Positions 413 to 51,894 of a stretch of DNA of 61,198 nt are shown here, piece after piece. The stretch is from an uncultured Bacilli bacterium (GTDB taxonomy: Bacteria > Bacillota_I > Bacilli_A > RF39 > UBA660). The notes under the pieces are model-generated. The model was not told where the DNA came from. It ran no database searches and worked only from the letters and a program-made list of their open reading frames with translations. The stretch covers positions 1 to 61,198 of the forward strand of contig CALVIP010000004.1 of NCBI GenBank assembly GCA_944331715.1, in the 5' to 3' direction. The position numbers and the translations under genes were made by a program. Each line of letters opens with the position of its first letter. Position 1 is the stretch's first letter.

Positions 413-1639
413 TTAATGTCTTATTTTATGAATTAATTTAATTAAATAATAGATAGGAGATGTCTTTATTTCAAATTCACCTATTAACTCTTCTATATAA
501 CCATTAAAACCTGTTTTAAACTCATAGATACCATAATCTTTATCATTTTTATCATCAAAAGTATTAGGTATTCCATAGAAATTATATCTATCATAACCAT
601 TATCAATAGCATATTTAATCATTTCCCACTGGATTAAGTACTGTGAATTATAAGATAAGAATTCTTCATAATTACCACTAGATAGATATACTACTTCTCT
701 TTTAGTCATTATAAACATAGAACCTGATAGAGTGATAACATCTCCATACTTTTCTTTTTCTTCTTTCGCTAGTTCTATTTTCTTATTTAGACCATTAATA
801 GTCTCATCTAAAGCTTTTCTTTTACCATCATTATTTTTATTATCACTAAGTTTATTTTTCTTAGCAATATTACTTTCTAATTCATTTTCTAACATTTTAA
901 TATATTTAGATAAATCTAGTTTAGTTACTAAATACTTTATTTCATTTTTCTTACTAAACAAGTCATACATATTTTTATAATAGTTAATATTTCTAATATC
1001 AAATCCTTTTCTTGAACCAGTACTTTGCATTATTTTATAAAATTCATCTAAATTATCTTTTGTTAGTTCTACTATCTCTACTCCGTTTTTAATATTTTTT
1101 CTAATTAAGTTTCTAGTGTTAGGTTTCATATTTTTCATTATTTCATCTTCTGTTTTATCTTTTGTATCTAAAGCATACATAAAGGTTACTTGTTCTCTAT
1201 CATCATAAGGAACACTAGTAAATCCTGTATTTAAAATAGTATTTACAATGTTTGTATTATCATAACCATCTTTAATTATTTCTCCTTTACCATTACGTTC
1301 TTTGTAAGGTACATAAGGGTCAATTCTTAGAACATAACCATTATGTTTTTTGACGAAATCTGTTAGTAGTTTTAAAAATGTTGTTAGTATCTTTTCATCA
1401 GTATAATCTACTAAAGGTCCTCGTGGAGCGTAAAATTCATATTTATTAAAATGTCTTTTCTTACCTACTAGAAGAGTCGCTCCAACTAGTTTATCATTAT
1501 CATATAATCCTAAATAATAAGGAGTCCAACCATTAAGTTTTCTTAGTTTACCTATTTCTTCTGTTTGCATAAAAGTCCTATTAGGACTCTTCTTAGCATA
1601 ATTTTCAAACGTCTTAACATCTATTTCTTTTAATGTCAT
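413..1639 (-). CDS. FemAB/MurM-type aminoacyltransferase (peptidoglycan interpeptide bridge)
   Basis: This 408-residue protein belongs to the FemABX family, which moves amino acids from aminoacyl-tRNA onto the lipid II stem peptide at the inner face of the membrane. Visible family features are the early FMQTEEIGKLRK segment, the core APRGPLVDY near residues 71-79, LRIDPYVPY near 104-112, a charged coiled-coil insertion at about 242-298 (the arm typical of Fem ligases), and the C-terminal YEFKTGFNGYIEELIGEFE signature. The start sits 7 bases after an AGGAGG site that lies inside the last codons of the flippase gene upstream, so the two genes are translationally close. The amino acid added cannot be told from sequence. 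Confidence 0.88.
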   Translation of the reverse strand: MTLKEIDVKTFENYAKKSPNRTFMQTEEIGKLRKLNGWTPYYLGLYDNDKLVGATLLVGKKRHFNKYEFYAPRGPLVDYTDEKILTTFLKLLTDFVKKHNGYVLRIDPYVPYKERNGKGEIIKDGYDNTNIVNTILNTGFTSVPYDDREQVTFMYALDTKDKTEDEIMKNMKPNTRNLIRKNIKNGVEIVELTKDNLDEFYKIMQSTGSRKGFDIRNINYYKNMYDLFSKKNEIKYLVTKLDLSKYIKMLENELESNIAKKNKLSDNKNNDGKRKALDETINGLNKKIELAKEEKEKYGDVITLSGSMFIMTKREVVYLSSGNYEEFLSYNSQYLIQWEMIKYAIDNGYDRYNFYGIPNTFDDKNDKDYGIYEFKTGFNGYIEELIGEFEIKTSPIYYLIKLIHKIRH

Positions 1640-1640
1640 T

Positions 1641-3311
1641 TTATTTCCTCCTAAACTTACTAGTTATCTTATTTATTAGTTTACTCCCAAATACTTCTTC
1701 TATTAAATTAAATTTGTGTGCAACAAAGAAATATACTAATACACCAATAAGAGCATAAATAGCGATAATTGGAATGTTTAATAATCTTACTGATGATGAA
1801 ATTGGTATTACTAGTTTTACAAGTGATAAAACAATAAGCATAGCGATATCTGCTAGAAGTATTTTACCTAAAAGTTTAACTGTTGGCATATAACTTACAC
1901 CACATTTTCTTTTTAGGAAGATTAGACATAGAATAATTCCTACGGCATAACCTAGTATAGTTGCAGTTATTGAACCATAAACAGGGACAAAACCTAAGTT
2001 ATGGAAAAGATTAATTAGTGGAACATTTAATACTAATTTTATTAATACTCCTACTACTAGAGAAATTAAAACTTCTTTATAGTATTTTAAAACTTGTACT
2101 ATTGATACTAAAGCTGTATAAGTTGATATTGTTAAAGCGACAAAGACAAAGTATTTAATTATAACAGCTCCATATTCACTATTATTACCATAGAATACTT
2201 CCCAGACAGGTTCACTTAAGAAAGATAGTCCTAAAGTCATAGGAACTGATATGAATAGTAATACTTGTAGAGTTTGATTTATTTTATGATGAATATCTTT
2301 TTTATCTTTTTTTACTGAAGCTGATGTAAGGTTTGGTATTAAACTTACAATGATACCTGTTGAGATAGATACAATAATCATATTGATTTTATTACCCCAA
2401 GTAGAGATTACACTCATAATGTTTTCAGCTTGGGCAGTTGTATAACCAATATCATTTACCATTGTTTTAACAATAGTTGTCATATCAATAAAGTCATAAC
2501 ATGATTTAAAGACATCTATCATAATGAAAGGTAAGGCATACCAGAATATTTTTATTAATATTTCTTTAGTTCTAATTACCGGCTCATCGACATCAAGAGC
2601 TTTTTCATGTAGTTGTTTTTTATTTTTTTTAACTTTATCTAATAGATAGAAATAAGCGAATATCGCTCCTGCTGTCGCACCAAATACGGCAACTCCTACT
2701 CCTGTTTGTAAAGATAAGTTAAAGACATTAATAGCGAAGAAACTACCTGCTACTATAATAATTACTCTTACTAATTGTTCTAATACTTGACTAATAGATG
2801 GAGGGGTTATAAATTTATGTCCTTCTAAATAACCTCTATAAATACTAAGTGTTGGTACAATAAGTATAGCAGTGGCAATTACTCTTACTACCATTGTTAC
2901 ATCTTCTAGTGTATTACCACCTTCTAAGTCTCCAAGAATCGCTTTGGCAATATCAGGAGCGAAGATAAAGAGAATTATAAAGATAGTAATTCCCATAATA
3001 ATGGCAAGTCGTCTACCTAGTTTAAAAGCTTTCTCTTTAGCATTATAATAACCTAATGTCTGATACTCACTAATTATTTTACTAATAGCATTAGGAATAC
3101 CTGCACAGGATAAAGATTGAAATAAGTTATAGATTGTATAGGCATAACCATATAAGGCTCCTCCCTGTCCTCCAATAATTGCATAAAATGGTATTACATA
3201 AAGCATACCTAGTATTTTACTACCTACTATACCTAATGTAGCAATAAAGGCTCCATTTAGAAAGGAATTTTGTTTTAATTCTTTATTTTTCTTTGTCTTT
3301 GTTTTTGCCAT
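1641..3311 (-). CDS. murJ: MurJ/YtgP-type lipid II flippase (MOP superfamily)
   Basis: This 556-residue polytopic membrane protein has a basic N-terminus followed by about fourteen hydrophobic segments. It resembles the SpoVB/YtgP branch of the MOP exporters; YtgP acts as MurJ in Bacillus, flipping lipid II across the membrane. Recognisable parts are the NGAFIATLGIVGSKILGMLY start, GGALYGYAYTIYNLFQSLS, and the GIPNAISKIISEY loop near residues 75-87. The ATG follows a GGAGG site. It lies directly upstream of one FemAB ligase and divergent from another, which fits a job in peptidoglycan precursor handling. A sporulation-specific SpoVB role cannot be excluded. Confidence 0.8.
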   Translation of the reverse strand: MAKTKTKKNKELKQNSFLNGAFIATLGIVGSKILGMLYVIPFYAIIGGQGGALYGYAYTIYNLFQSLSCAGIPNAISKIISEYQTLGYYNAKEKAFKLGRRLAIIMGITIFIILFIFAPDIAKAILGDLEGGNTLEDVTMVVRVIATAILIVPTLSIYRGYLEGHKFITPPSISQVLEQLVRVIIIVAGSFFAINVFNLSLQTGVGVAVFGATAGAIFAYFYLLDKVKKNKKQLHEKALDVDEPVIRTKEILIKIFWYALPFIMIDVFKSCYDFIDMTTIVKTMVNDIGYTTAQAENIMSVISTWGNKINMIIVSISTGIIVSLIPNLTSASVKKDKKDIHHKINQTLQVLLFISVPMTLGLSFLSEPVWEVFYGNNSEYGAVIIKYFVFVALTISTYTALVSIVQVLKYYKEVLISLVVGVLIKLVLNVPLINLFHNLGFVPVYGSITATILGYAVGIILCLIFLKRKCGVSYMPTVKLLGKILLADIAMLIVLSLVKLVIPISSSVRLLNIPIIAIYALIGVLVYFFVAHKFNLIEEVFGSKLINKITSKFRRK

Positions 3312-3350: not shown

Positions 3351-3379
3351 TTGAAAAGTTTTAAAGTAACTTGTATAAT
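3351..3379 (+). promoter_or_regulatory. Sigma-A type promoter of the rightward FemAB gene
   Basis: TTGAAA (3351-3356), a 17-base spacer and TATAAT (3374-3379). It lies inside the longest possible ORF, which argues for the downstream ATG at 3402 as the true start. Confidence 0.8.
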
Positions 3380-3401
3380 TAAAGAAGATAGAGGTGATTT
3401 A

Positions 3402-4652
3402 ATGGAACTTAGAGAATTAACGAAAAAAGAGTTTGACCAGTTTGCTCTTAATCACCCTTTAGGTAGTTTTCAACAAACAAGTTCTTGGGGGAGATTTATG
3501 GAAGGTGATAAATTCCATGCTTATTATGTAGGGGGATTTATTAAAGAACATTTAGTAGGAGCGAGTTTACTTCTTTCTTATGAGAGAAAAAAAGATAAGG
3601 AGAGATTATTCTATGCCCCTCGTGGATTTTTAATAGATTATAAGAATGAAGAATCATTAAAAGAGTTCACAGAAGAAGTTAAGAAGTTTATTATTGAAAA
3701 ACATGGTGTCTTTTTAAAGATAGATCCTTATATTTTAGTAAGAGATAGAAATAGTGAAGGAAATATCATAGAAGGTGGAGTCTATAATGACTTTGTAGAG
3801 GTTAATCTTACTAATGCTAACTTTATTAAAGTTAATGATAGGATTCAACCTAAATGGCTTAGTAGAATTAATTTAAAAGAGAAGACTATAGATGATATCT
3901 TTAATAACTTTAGTCCTAAAGCAAGACAGACTGTTCGAAGAAATGAAAGACTAGGATTCAAAGTAAGAGACTTTGATTTTAAGGATATTGATAAATTTAT
4001 AGGTATTATAGATAATGAAAGTAAAAAATATCGTACTATCGTACCTACTAAAACTTTCTATCTAGACTTAAAACAGGCTTTTGATGGTAATATTAAGTTT
4101 ATGGAAGTTTATTTTAAGAGGGATGAAGTTACCAACAATATTGATAAGATGATTTCAGAGGTAATAAAAGAAAAAGAAGTTAGAATAAATAACTATCACA
4201 ACTCAAAGATGACTGCAGAATATTTTATTGATAAAGAACTTGAAGATGAAGAAGAGATTAAAAGATTAGAGAGTTTAAAAGAATATTTTTCTAAATGTAG
4301 CGATGATGTTAGTATGGGTATTTATATGTTTATAACCATTGGTAATGAAGTTGTGGCATTAAATGGTGGAATTGTGGATGAATATAATAAGTTAGATGCT
4401 TCTTATACACTTCATTATGAGATGATTAGGTATGCAATAGAGAATGGTTATAAGTATTATAATTTATATGAAATTGGAGATATTAATGATTCTAATAATA
4501 AATTAAAAAATTCTTATAACTATAAAAAGAACTTTGGGGGACAAGTTGTTGAATTAGTTGGAGAGTATGATTTAGTAATTAATCCTAAATATACCAATAT
4601 GGCAAGAAAATACTTTCCAGAGTATTTAGGAGTTAAAACTATATTTAAGTAA
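3402..4652 (+). CDS. Second FemAB/MurM-type aminoacyltransferase
   Basis: This 416-residue FemABX-family protein is paralogous to the ligase at 413-1639. It shares the QQTSSWGRFM start, YAPRGFLIDY near residue 74, LKIDPYI, a charged helical insertion around 235-300, and the YNYKKNFGGQVVELVGEYD C-terminal signature. I place the start at 3402 because GAGGTG lies six bases upstream and a good promoter lies between 3351 and 3379; a longer frame from 3351 would begin inside the promoter. It is transcribed away from the flippase gene. Two different Fem ligases beside one flippase suggest stepwise building of a multi-residue bridge (inference). Confidence 0.87.
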   Translation: MELRELTKKEFDQFALNHPLGSFQQTSSWGRFMEGDKFHAYYVGGFIKEHLVGASLLLSYERKKDKERLFYAPRGFLIDYKNEESLKEFTEEVKKFIIEKHGVFLKIDPYILVRDRNSEGNIIEGGVYNDFVEVNLTNANFIKVNDRIQPKWLSRINLKEKTIDDIFNNFSPKARQTVRRNERLGFKVRDFDFKDIDKFIGIIDNESKKYRTIVPTKTFYLDLKQAFDGNIKFMEVYFKRDEVTNNIDKMISEVIKEKEVRINNYHNSKMTAEYFIDKELEDEEEIKRLESLKEYFSKCSDDVSMGIYMFITIGNEVVALNGGIVDEYNKLDASYTLHYEMIRYAIENGYKYYNLYEIGDINDSNNKLKNSYNYKKNFGGQVVELVGEYDLVINPKYTNMARKYFPEYLGVKTIFK

Positions 4653-4667
4653 TTCATACCTGATACT

Positions 4668-4696
4668 TTGACATTAATATAAAATTATGATATTAT
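4668..4696 (+). promoter_or_regulatory. Strong sigma-A promoter for an unassigned transcript
   Basis: TTGACA (4668-4673), a 17-base spacer and TATTAT (4691-4696). It reads rightwards into about 150 bases with no convincing ORF that end in a strong terminator. Confidence 0.75.
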
Positions 4697-4702
4697 GTAT
4701 TT

Positions 4703-4850
4703 AGCAAAGAGATTTGCAATAAGAATAGATGCTTTCAAAAGTGATTTGGTTTGCATCTAATTCAAGAATTAGATGTCTTATTTATTGTTAAATAAGGGAG
4801 ATAATAATAGGAGGAAGAAAAATAACTTAGTATGTTATTTTTCTTTTGTA
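4703..4850 (+). ncRNA. Candidate small structured RNA, unknown family
   Basis: A near-consensus promoter ends at 4696 and a perfect 10-bp terminator hairpin lies at 4817-4843. The transcript would contain a GCAAA-GAGA-TTTGC hairpin (4704-4717). It also holds two mutually exclusive pairings: GATGC (4728-4732) with GCATC (4753-4757), or a 9-10 bp hairpin 4754-4775 that reuses the same GCATC. Unpaired GGGAGA and AGGAGG stretches lie near 4795-4815. The only ORF is a 20-codon frame from ATG at 4729 without a good ribosome site. I recognise no known RNA family. It could be a trans-acting RNA, an attenuated leader, or a small-peptide gene. Confidence 0.5.
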
Positions 4851-4856
4851 TTTTTT
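4817..4856 (+). terminator. Rho-independent terminator, probably bidirectional
   Basis: Perfect stem GAAAAATAAC / GTTATTTTTC (4817-4826 and 4834-4843) with a 7-base loop, followed by TTTTGTATTTTTT. It ends the rightward transcript and, on the other strand, lies just after the stop of the small gene at 4855-5025. Confidence 0.8.
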
Positions 4857-5025
4857 AATAATAAATTATCATAGCAGAAAAACAATATATCTGCTCTTCT
4901 CCACTAGGAAAAGAACTAACAGCATACTTAATATCTACAACTTCTCCATCTAAATCACCTAAAAACTCATTCATTGCTTTTTGTAAATCACTCTCATCTT
5001 CATAGTCGAATATTTTTACTTTCAT
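4855..5025 (-). CDS. Cse60-like small sporulation protein
   Basis: This 56-codon ORF encodes a small acidic protein beginning MKVKIFDYEDESDLQKAMNE and ending EEQIYCFSAMIIYY. The MKVKIFD start, the VVDIKYAVSSF middle and the EQIYCFSAMIIY end match the Cse60 family (Spore_Cse60, DUF2758). In Bacillus subtilis cse60 is a sporulation gene under sigma-E; its biochemical role is unknown. A weak AAAGG site lies about 10 bases upstream. It is monocistronic, between the leuS terminator and a bidirectional terminator. A sporulation-class protein agrees with spo0A elsewhere in the window. Assigned by motif memory; function uncertain. Confidence 0.7.
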   Translation of the reverse strand: MKVKIFDYEDESDLQKAMNEFLGDLDGEVVDIKYAVSSFPSGEEQIYCFSAMIIYY

Positions 5026-5124: not shown

Positions 5125-7518
5125 CTATTTTACAACTATATTTACTATTTTACCTTTGATAACAATGATCTTAACTATTTCTTTACCTTCAGTGAATTTC
5201 TTTACATTTTCTTGGACTAAAGCTTTTTCTTTAACTACATCTTCACTATCATTAACATTTATTGTTATAGTAGCACGTACTTTACCATTTACTTGGACTG
5301 CTATTTTTTTCTCTTCTTCTATTAAGTACTTTTCTTCATATATTGGATAAGACTCATTATGAATAGAATATTTATTACCAATACTTTGCCATAATTCTTC
5401 TGCTATATGTGGTGCAAATGGTGCAAGTATAAGAAGTAATTTTTCTATATAATATCTAGGAATACCACTTTGTTCATACTTTGATAAAATGTTAGTGTAT
5501 TCCATTATTCTAGCCATAGATGTATTAAATTGAAATTTTTCTATGTCTTCTCTTATTGATTTTAAAGAATTATGTAATACTTTATCAATTTCAGTTATTC
5601 TTTCATCACTTTCTTTTATAGCATTAGTTAAACGTTCAATTTTATGATAAAACTTGTTAATAGAAATTATACCATCATCAGTCCAAGGACCACCATCTAT
5701 ATAGTTAAAGCCAAACATTAAATAGCCTCTTAATACATCTGCTCCATATTTTTCTACTAATGGATCAGGTGCTACTGTATTTCCTTTGGATTTAGACATT
5801 TTCTCACCATCTGGACCTAATATAGTACCTTGATGAACTAAAGATAAGAATGGTTCATCAAAGTTTAGATATCCCATATCTCTTAAAGCTTTAGTAAAGA
5901 ATCTTGCATATAGTAAGTGCATACAAGCATGTTCTATACCACCTACATATTTATCAACAGGTAGTATTTTATTTATTAAATCTTTATTAAATGGTTCCTT
6001 ATCATTATGAGCATCAGGATATCTTAAATAATACCAACTAGAGCATACAAAGGTATCTAGGGTATCTGCTTCTCTTTTAGCTTTCTTACCACATTTAGGA
6101 CATGTACAATTCATAAAAGAGTCACATTTTTTTAAAGGACTTTCCCCATCTGGAGTAAATTCTACATCCATTGGTAATTTTACTGGTAAATCTTTTTCTG
6201 GAACTGGTACTATTCCACAGTCTTCACAGTAAATAATAGGAATAGGAGCCCCCCAATATCTTTGACGAGATACTAACCAGTCTCTTAATTTATATGTTGT
6301 AGTTTTCTTTCCGAAGCCTTTCTCTTCTAGATAAGCATTCATTTTATTTAGAGCATCTTCTTTATTCAAACCATTTAAAAAGTCTGAATTAATGTGAAGT
6401 CCATCACCAACAAAAGCTTCTTTAGATAAGTCTCCTCCTTCTAAAACTGGTATTATCTCTAAATTAAATTTTTTAGCAAATTCATAATCTCTTTCATCAT
6501 GAGCTGGTACTGCCATAATTGCACCTGTTCCATATGTTGCTAAAACATAATCACTAATCCAAATAGGTATTTTTTTATTATTTACAGGATTAATAGCATA
6601 TGCCCCTGTAAAGACACCTGTCTTTTCTTTAGTAGTACTTGTTCTTTCAATATCACTTTGTTTACTAGCTTGTTCTTTATATTTATTAACTTCTTCTTTT
6701 TGAAGAGAAGTAGTTATTTTGTCAACTAATGGTAATTCAGGTGCTAAAACACAATAAGTTGCCCCAAATAAAGTGTCGCACCTAGTTGTAAATACTGTAA
6801 ACTTTTCATCAGTACCATCTACTTTAAAGTCAACATAAGCACCTACACTTTTACCTATCCAATTTCGTTGAAGATTTTTAGTTCTATCAGGCCAGTCTAA
6901 TTTATCTAAGTCATTTAATAGTTCTTCAGCATAATCAGTAATTTTAAAGAACCATTGACTCATATTTTTTCTAATAACTGTGCTACCACATCTTTCACAG
7001 TTTCCTGATATTACTTGTTCATTAGCTAAAACGGTATTACATGATGGACAGAAATTAACAGGAGCTTCTTTTTTATATGCAAGTCCTTTTTCATATAGTT
7101 TTAAAAACATCCACTGTGTCCATTTATAATAATCTTCTTTACAAGTTTTTATTTCATAATCCCAATCCCATGAGCCACCTATTCTACTTAGTTGTTTTTC
7201 CATAGTTTCAATATTTTTATCAGTACTTATAGCAGGATGTATCCCTGTTTTGATAGCATAGTTTTCGGCTGGCAATCCAAAAGCATCGAAGCCCATTGGA
7301 TGGAATACATTATAACCATCCATTTTTTTAAATCTTGCCCATGTATCGGTAACACCATAATTATACCAATGACCCATATGTAATTTAGCACCACTTGGAT
7401 AACTGAACATTTCTAAACAATATAGCTTTTCTTTTTTGCTTTCAGGATTAAACTTATAAAGTTTATCTTCTTTCCACTTTTTTTCCCATTTTTCTTCTAT
7501 TTCATTAAAATTAATCAT
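5125..7518 (-). CDS. leuS: Leucyl-tRNA synthetase
   Basis: LeuS charges tRNA-Leu with leucine in the cytosol. The 797-residue product has the class I HIGH motif as HMGH at residues 47-50 ([10 protein letters not shown]), zinc-type cysteine pairs CPSC and CERC around 158-178, an inserted editing (CP1) domain with [12 protein letters not shown], a second cysteine cluster (CEDCG, CPKCGKK), SSWYYLRY, and KMSKS at 573-577. Length is normal for bacteria. It overlaps the preceding small membrane gene by 8 bases, and both lie downstream of a leucine T-box, so expression should rise when uncharged tRNA-Leu accumulates. A terminator follows at 5081-5114. Confidence 0.98.
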
Positions 7519-7867: not shown

Positions 7868-8088
7868 AATACTCCTCCTAACAAAAATAGATTCCTATTA
7901 ACAAGAACGAGTTAAACCCGTGGTACCATCTTGCTTCATAGAAATCTATGCACTTTAAAGTTATATCGGACTTATCCGTAAATGTTTAAGGTTATCAAGT
8001 TCAAAAAGTTATTTTATTTGTTTCCACCAACCACAAACTCTCTATTAAAATAGGTCTTTTTTACTACTACAACCACATTTAAAATCTA
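7868..8088 (-). promoter_or_regulatory. T-box riboswitch (leucine) upstream of the leuS operon
   Basis: The leader contains the T-box core AAGATGGTACCACGG (7932-7918 region), a stem I apical element GGTTGGTGGAAAC and an AGTA motif further upstream. A CTT triplet at 7999-7997, in GAACTTGATAACC, is a plausible leucine specifier codon. A long terminator hairpin (arms 7949-7929 and 7906-7887) ends in TTTTT at 7887-7883. The leader lies just upstream of the small membrane gene and leuS. Uncharged tRNA-Leu would be expected to stabilise the antiterminator. The specifier assignment is the least certain part. Confidence 0.88.
7882..7949 (-). terminator. T-box regulated attenuator hairpin
   Basis: The segment at 7949-7929 pairs with 7906-7887 with few mismatches; both arms carry ATAGATT/AATCTAT and CAAGA/TCTTG blocks. 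A U-run follows. The left arm precedes the T-box sequence that would form the competing antiterminator. Confidence 0.75.
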
Positions 8089-26340: not shown

Positions 26341-26457
26341 TTTACGTCCTCCCTTCGCCTATATCTAGTATAGACTTGCTCCGTGTGAATAACCCGATAG
26401 CTGATTAACAACTTAACCTGGCGTATCGACAACCTCCCACATCTAAGCAGTCACACG
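26341..26457 (-). promoter_or_regulatory. Structured leader of the S10 operon (possible ribosomal-protein autoregulation)
   Basis: The 5' region of rpsJ folds into an outer stem CGTGTGA / TCACACG (26457-26451 with 26388-26382) enclosing about 60 bases with GATGTGGGAGG and further short helices. S10 operons of many bacteria are controlled by L4 binding such a leader; that role here is an inference from position. The GTGGGAGG block recurs in the rplA leader. Confidence 0.5.
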
Positions 26458-51756: not shown

Positions 51757-51885
51757 AGTCAGTTTAAATAGTCCCTAGAAAGTTTAAAAGTTCTCGAGAT
51801 TTTCCCCAAGAACTTTTATTTATAGTAATTAGTCCTCGGTAGGATTTACGTTTTTACCTACTGTCTTGGGTACTTGTTAACTGAT
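51757..51885 (-). promoter_or_regulatory. Ribosomal protein L10 leader with attenuator
   Basis: The leader has the conserved core CCAAGACAGTAGGT, AAATCCTACCGAGGA (51870-51833 region), which forms the L10-L12 binding element of the known L10 leader family. A terminator-like hairpin follows, with arms AAAAGTTCT (51817-51809) and AGAACTTTT (51794-51786). Binding of L10(L12)4 is expected to favour termination. Confidence 0.88.
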
Positions 51886-51894
51886 TTCTTTCTT

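Follow-up and report, generated by a model that had tools for sequence, protein, structure and literature searches.

In the 61,198-nt stretch of DNA analysed here (the window), a promoter and several hairpins lie in a gap between two genes, with no apparent gene of their own. What is encoded in this gap, and where does it come from? A first-pass annotation had described it as an orphan transcription unit in which a near-consensus promoter and a perfect 10-bp terminator frame a transcript of ~148 nt, proposed to be a small regulatory RNA or a self-contained switch. The unit is very probably best explained as a truncated copy, lacking the toxin, of a type I toxin–antitoxin-like module that occurs in many copies in Candidatus Onthousia and the family around it. 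Promoter, hairpins and the lack of a gene were described correctly, but the unit is incomplete: it is one of many copies of a module, and a damaged one.

The locus between two flanking genes

The locus comprises the following features.

3351–4652, plus strand: ORF of a presumably FemXAB-like gene, synteny marker on one side
4668–4696, plus strand: promoter of the antisense-type RNA, with −35 box TTGACA (4668–4673), −10 box TATTAT (4691–4696) and TG ahead of the −10 box
4704–4717, plus strand: hairpin H1, GCAAAGAGATTTGC, conserved across the family as GCAAG/CTTGC, GTCAA/TTGAC and TGAAG/CTTCA variants
4724–4736, plus strand: what is left of hairpin H2, namely its 3' arm AATAGATGCTTTC; a deletion has removed the 5' arm together with the A-rich linker (23 model positions absent)
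4753–4787, plus strand: hairpin H3, followed by a T-rich tail and predicted to terminate the RNA
4778–4815, minus strand: remnant of a toxin gene, 3' end (C-terminal codons), by comparison with the copies L022 and L033; includes AGGAGG on the plus strand (4809–4814)
4816–4844, no strand assigned: AT-rich hairpin where the cse60-like gene ends, outside the module
4855–5025, minus strand: 56-aa gene that we take to be cse60-like; synteny marker, no NCBIfam match

The promoter TTGACA-N17-TATTAT is one of two 11/12 matches in the 12 kb that were scanned, and its −10 region is shared with sister copies when these are compared side by side. Across the same 12 kb, promoter-like sites occur overall at chance level for AT-rich DNA (77 found vs 81.7 expected), and the distal hairpin at 4816–4844 contains just 2 G-C pairs among its 11 pairs. 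Thus, neither the promoter alone nor this hairpin alone is evidence for a transcription unit. The hairpin had been annotated as the terminator; it exists, but it is missing from the list of the terminator scan. Since it immediately follows the cse60-like gene on the opposite strand, and since none was seen in the full modules that relatives have at the femX/cse60 junction, the RNA itself probably terminates elsewhere. We consider the hairpin no part of the module and probably the terminator of the cse60-like gene, possibly a bidirectional one. Sister copies instead place the predicted terminator of the RNA at H3, which would result in a transcript of ~86 nt and not ~148 nt.

Between the FemXAB-like and the cse60-like gene, the plus strand contains no ORF longer than 35 aa, in agreement with the annotation. 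The 20-codon plus-strand frame at 4729 was rejected as a gene: it spans the H2 remnant and H3, and the conservation of these two elements is explained by RNA pairing. Short plus-strand ORFs were likewise dismissed, since the sense-strand control described below, which covers hydrophobic ORFs, is almost empty of them. A search of the unit with the Rfam covariance models, which the annotation had suggested, yielded no match at gathering score and chance-level hits only.

A repeated module with a covarying RNA and an opposite-strand peptide

By DNA search of 60 relatives, we found near-identical copies of the element in close congeners and copies of 67–82% identity elsewhere, with several copies per genome. 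The named records that contain it are Candidatus Onthousia and Bacilli or Tenericutes metagenome assemblies. Read side by side, most copies proved longer than that of the window, with a frame of ~25–27 codons (e.g. MNKREKSFFIIIIILLFIIISLIYR) behind a Shine-Dalgarno site on their opposite strand. With a covariance model, the element was detected in all 35 Candidatus Onthousia genomes searched, with 16 matches in the genome of the window and up to 26 in other genomes of the genus. In a sample of the order, it is present in 214 of 288 genomes (~74%), the listed ones all belonging to one family; in a sample of the class, a single genome outside that family (G545) contains it. These genomes are metagenome assemblies, and the copies in the window's own genome were read from individual regions. 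Among eleven further copies there, ten have an intact peptide frame, including one on contig 42 whose leader side is cut by the contig end, and one is degenerate. Seven loci with full copies had no Rfam match at gathering score. A phage origin was considered and dropped, as neither an exact pattern search in viral contigs nor blastn of one copy against phages resulted in a find.

Tandem arrays are common, with two or three modules ~350–500 bp apart (L022, 1000–1850; L104, L111, L125, L166). The module of G545, on contig 32 (L156/L173), has an intact peptide frame, MKKRIFVIKVLRYLSIILLLQIIMIIVIKK; horizontal transfer and a contaminating contig are the candidate explanations for its presence.

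Intact copies across the family have in common an RNA of ~110 nt with the hairpins H1, H2 and H3. In the RNAalifold consensus, 15 of the 17 pairs have changes on both sides. When the H1 and outer H2 pairs are added, there are 153 double-change cells compared to 39 in shuffles. Sliding the partners by one base reduces the paired cells from 90% to ~40%, a control that favours the structure because part of that structure came from the alignment being tested. Stronger evidence for an RNA structure comes from the double changes.

This scaffold also bears on the idea of a self-contained regulatory RNA, in which alternative pairings of a ~148-nt transcript would sense a signal. Such pairings exist in predicted folds, where GATGC (4728–4732) and the H3 arm GCATC (4753–4757) can form an exclusive pair, and the stretch 4702–4853 folds more stably than its shuffles (z −4.67). 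However, the competing geometry is absent from full copies since H2 has its own 5' arm there; in the window copy, GATGC is free to pair with GCATC of H3 because that arm is deleted. Furthermore, no downstream plus-strand gene exists that could be controlled, and there is no Rfam match. The tract AGGAGG (4809–4814), previously read as a free purine tract, is the complement of the codons CCT CCT ATT ATT of the deleted opposite-strand peptide gene and is thus accounted for as a toxin remnant. We therefore regard a switch as scarcely credible, whereas the unit is a small RNA gene by origin, namely that of an antisense RNA with covarying hairpins.

The second component of the module is the peptide. 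A hydrophobic ORF with a Shine-Dalgarno site is present on the antisense strand in 83 of 102 distinct full-length loci, although one or two of these (e.g. L067) are likely chance frames, and is missing in the other 19; the sense strand has one in 102 and local shuffles have 1.3%. The ORFs start 210 ± 18 nt from the RNA start and encode 18–37 aa, mostly 24–33 aa, which is short enough for ordinary gene finding to miss. Intact sister modules encode a short hydrophobic peptide that has a single membrane-spanning stretch, and its frame has a ribosome-binding site. Several peptide types occur on the one RNA scaffold (MKTKTF.., MNKKDFL.., MxKRE.., MRKTEK..), and three types are represented by MNKREKSYFIIIIILLFIIITLISR, MKTKTFIIKVLKLIAIILFLLIIMIVVIKK and MNKKDFLILSLVIIIFLLLFLLFIVLI. 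No Pfam or NCBIfam family scores above cut-off for the peptides, which also match no known toxin family. Within groups, dN/dS is 0.12–0.37 and second codon positions are the least changed; as the pairs are not independent, these values are indications, and not tests, that the peptides are under purifying selection.

Purifying selection and high copy number are also compatible with a useful small membrane protein that is controlled by an antisense RNA and is no toxin. However, the many dispensable, dispersed and degenerating copies with swapped peptide types resemble toxin–antitoxin modules more than a housekeeping gene, and we consider a useful protein unlikely. For the intact modules, the case for a toxin–antitoxin system, as judged from their sequences, is strong.

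Predicted layout of intact modules and known type I systems

On the plus strand, a T-rich run follows H3; on the toxin strand, behind H2, comes a T-run, the complement of the conserved ATAAAATAAAAA (mean 9.8 of 14 bases). The predicted transcripts thus overlap from H2 to H3, and their convergent 3' ends are perfectly complementary over ~80 nt. By sequence, the module contains a putative antisense RNA that has its own promoter, covaries and is complementary to the predicted toxin mRNA over this overlap. The toxin mRNA leader is predicted to pair with its own 3' end at −34.3 kcal/mol, compared to −22.1 with the tails of foreign toxin types, and the Shine-Dalgarno site is hidden to some extent (pairing probability 0.78 vs 0.58 with shuffled flanks). 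A second contact, between H2 of the antisense RNA and the toxin leader, is barely above foreign pairs and is not relied on.

From the repeat family, the RNA covariation, the peptide conservation and the overlap geometry, all observed computationally, we infer transcription, toxicity, neutralisation and the participation of RNase III as follows. One promoter would give rise to the ~110-nt antisense RNA H1-H2-H3, ending at H3, and a convergent mRNA, ending at H2, would encode the single-helix hydrophobic peptide. Because the transcripts overlap over ~80 nt of perfect complementarity, the antisense RNA could bind the 3' end of the mRNA, and the duplex would most likely result in RNase III degradation and/or a translation block. 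Pairing of the leader with the mRNA's own 3' end would keep the full-length toxin mRNA closed. In hok-type messages, the full-length form is held closed by leader/3'-end pairing.

Gram-positive type I toxin–antitoxin loci are laid out as convergent RNAs whose 3' ends overlap, together with a small hydrophobic peptide (PMC4147584, PMC6563280, PMC7472228). In TxpA/RatA and BsrG/SR4 of Bacillus subtilis, the 3' overlaps are ~75 and 120 nt (PMC4147584). The Onthousia modules have the layout of these two systems: the convergent RNAs overlap at their 3' ends (by a predicted ~80 nt), the peptide is small and hydrophobic, and the antisense RNA is predicted to make contact at the mRNA 3' end. They share no toxin homology with them, as judged by Pfam and NCBIfam cut-offs only; their peptides are shorter and without Pfam match. 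In contrast to both systems, one RNA scaffold serves several peptide types. Furthermore, BsrG and TxpA belong to prophage or skin elements, whereas the Onthousia modules are dispersed at 10–26 sites in many genomes of the genus.

The modules also resemble par/Fst of pAD1 and the Fst/Ldr family (PMC7472228) in their convergent RNAs, the hairpin terminators in the overlap and the leader structures that mask the Shine-Dalgarno site. However, the listed peptides have no PXXXG motif and no Pfam match above cut-off, which sets them apart from the Fst/Ldr family. Where these systems have one shared bidirectional terminator and direct repeats, we predict two staggered terminators, H2 and H3, and the leader and RNA repeats are inverted. 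With CD2517.1-RCd8 of Clostridioides difficile and its relatives (PMC6563280), the modules share convergent overlapping genes, several copies per genome and previously unannotated toxins. The C. difficile toxins differ in that they are 34–53 aa long, have lysine-rich C-terminal regions and reside mainly in prophages and near CRISPR arrays, and the relation is judged only by the absent Pfam/NCBIfam match. Similar to Ibs/Sib of Escherichia coli (PMC4147584), where the antisense RNA has ~140 nt, the module is repeated in multiple copies and places a tiny hydrophobic peptide opposite an antisense RNA; yet Sib spans all of ibs, ribosome-binding site included, whereas the Onthousia RNA should by prediction stop at H3 and reach the mRNA 3' end only. 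Our literature searches, largely outside subscription journals, found nothing that links Onthousia to toxin–antitoxin systems. The modules apparently form an undescribed, highly multiplied group of type I toxin–antitoxin-like systems.

The window copy and its possible activity in trans

The family model matches the window at 4687–4789 (55.2 bits, E 1.9e-6), with 23 H2 positions missing. The window copy has no intact toxin gene: start codon and leader are absent, and behind H3 there are C-terminal codons only, and compared to L033 and L022 a piece is missing within them. Deleted are the toxin start, the leader, the toxin promoter and one H2 arm; what survives is H1 and H3 with the RNA promoter, and a fragment of the toxin frame. 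Relatives have complete modules at the same femX/cse60 junction (e.g. L016, L017, L020, L038), and where the gap between the two genes was measured in relatives it is ~380–390 bp, compared to ~200 bp in the window. The comparison is thus most simply explained by a loss of ~180 bp in the window clade. The orphan, toxin-less form is present in ten congeners. We conclude that the window copy is probably a relic, which would at most make a short RNA without cognate toxin. In L009 (near 180–260) and L010 (near 95–180), the orphan remnant is interrupted by GGTTCTTCGACATTAAAGGGTGCTGAG.., resembling an insertion-sequence end.

Could the relic still act in trans? The window RNA might be a working antitoxin against a sister toxin of the same type, i.e. 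an anti-addiction copy. With the one MxKRE-type toxin mRNA examined in the same genome (L021), the predicted duplex reaches −58.1 kcal/mol compared to −27.3 ± 2.8 for the shuffled orphan, and the orphan occurs in ten congeners. This duplex is, however, much less stable than the one formed by the cognate antitoxin (−146.6 kcal/mol) and is a consequence of common descent. H2 is damaged, and the other eight of the nine toxin mRNAs tested in this genome form no clear duplex with the orphan RNA. The orphan block is less divergent than neighbouring DNA, a comparison that is disturbed beyond ~5300 by two leuS versions. We rejected this as proof of function: the RNA part is no more conserved than the dead toxin remnant, so that conservation does not decide whether the remnant functions. 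According to the predicted duplexes, a role in trans is possible, and a working antitoxin is in our estimation improbable. Equally speculative is a more general scheme, in which many reduced genomes have 10–26 sites with a family-wide antitoxin scaffold and exchangeable micro-toxins, and copies without toxin persist as trans antitoxins that tame matching sister toxins.

With the window copy read as a truncated module, an unexplained gap is turned into a relic; the group of type I modules behind it, in uncultivated gut Bacilli, appears to be large and undescribed, and the covariance model now finds its members. The main interest lies in the family behind the window unit and not in a switch. The copy number in genomes of 0.9–1.7 Mb, the pattern of one scaffold with several toxins and the frequent toxin-less copies offer a natural test of spread, decay and tolerance.

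Several further observations concern the surroundings of the locus. Congeners (L007, L008, L016, L020, L038) differ strongly in the adjoining leuS gene (5125–7518, minus strand): of its two versions, one has ~49–54% protein identity to the window's copy and the other 89%, which suggests that leuS was replaced at the syntenic place. Two FemXAB-like genes (413–1639, minus strand; 3351–4652, plus strand) flank a MurJ-type lipid II flippase-like gene (1641–3311, minus strand), as named by sequence inspection only. Elsewhere in the window, Rfam matches at gathering score identify three leaders on the minus strand: a T-box leader (7900–8080), an S10-Clostridia leader (26355–26453) and a ribosomal protein L10 leader (51775–51888).
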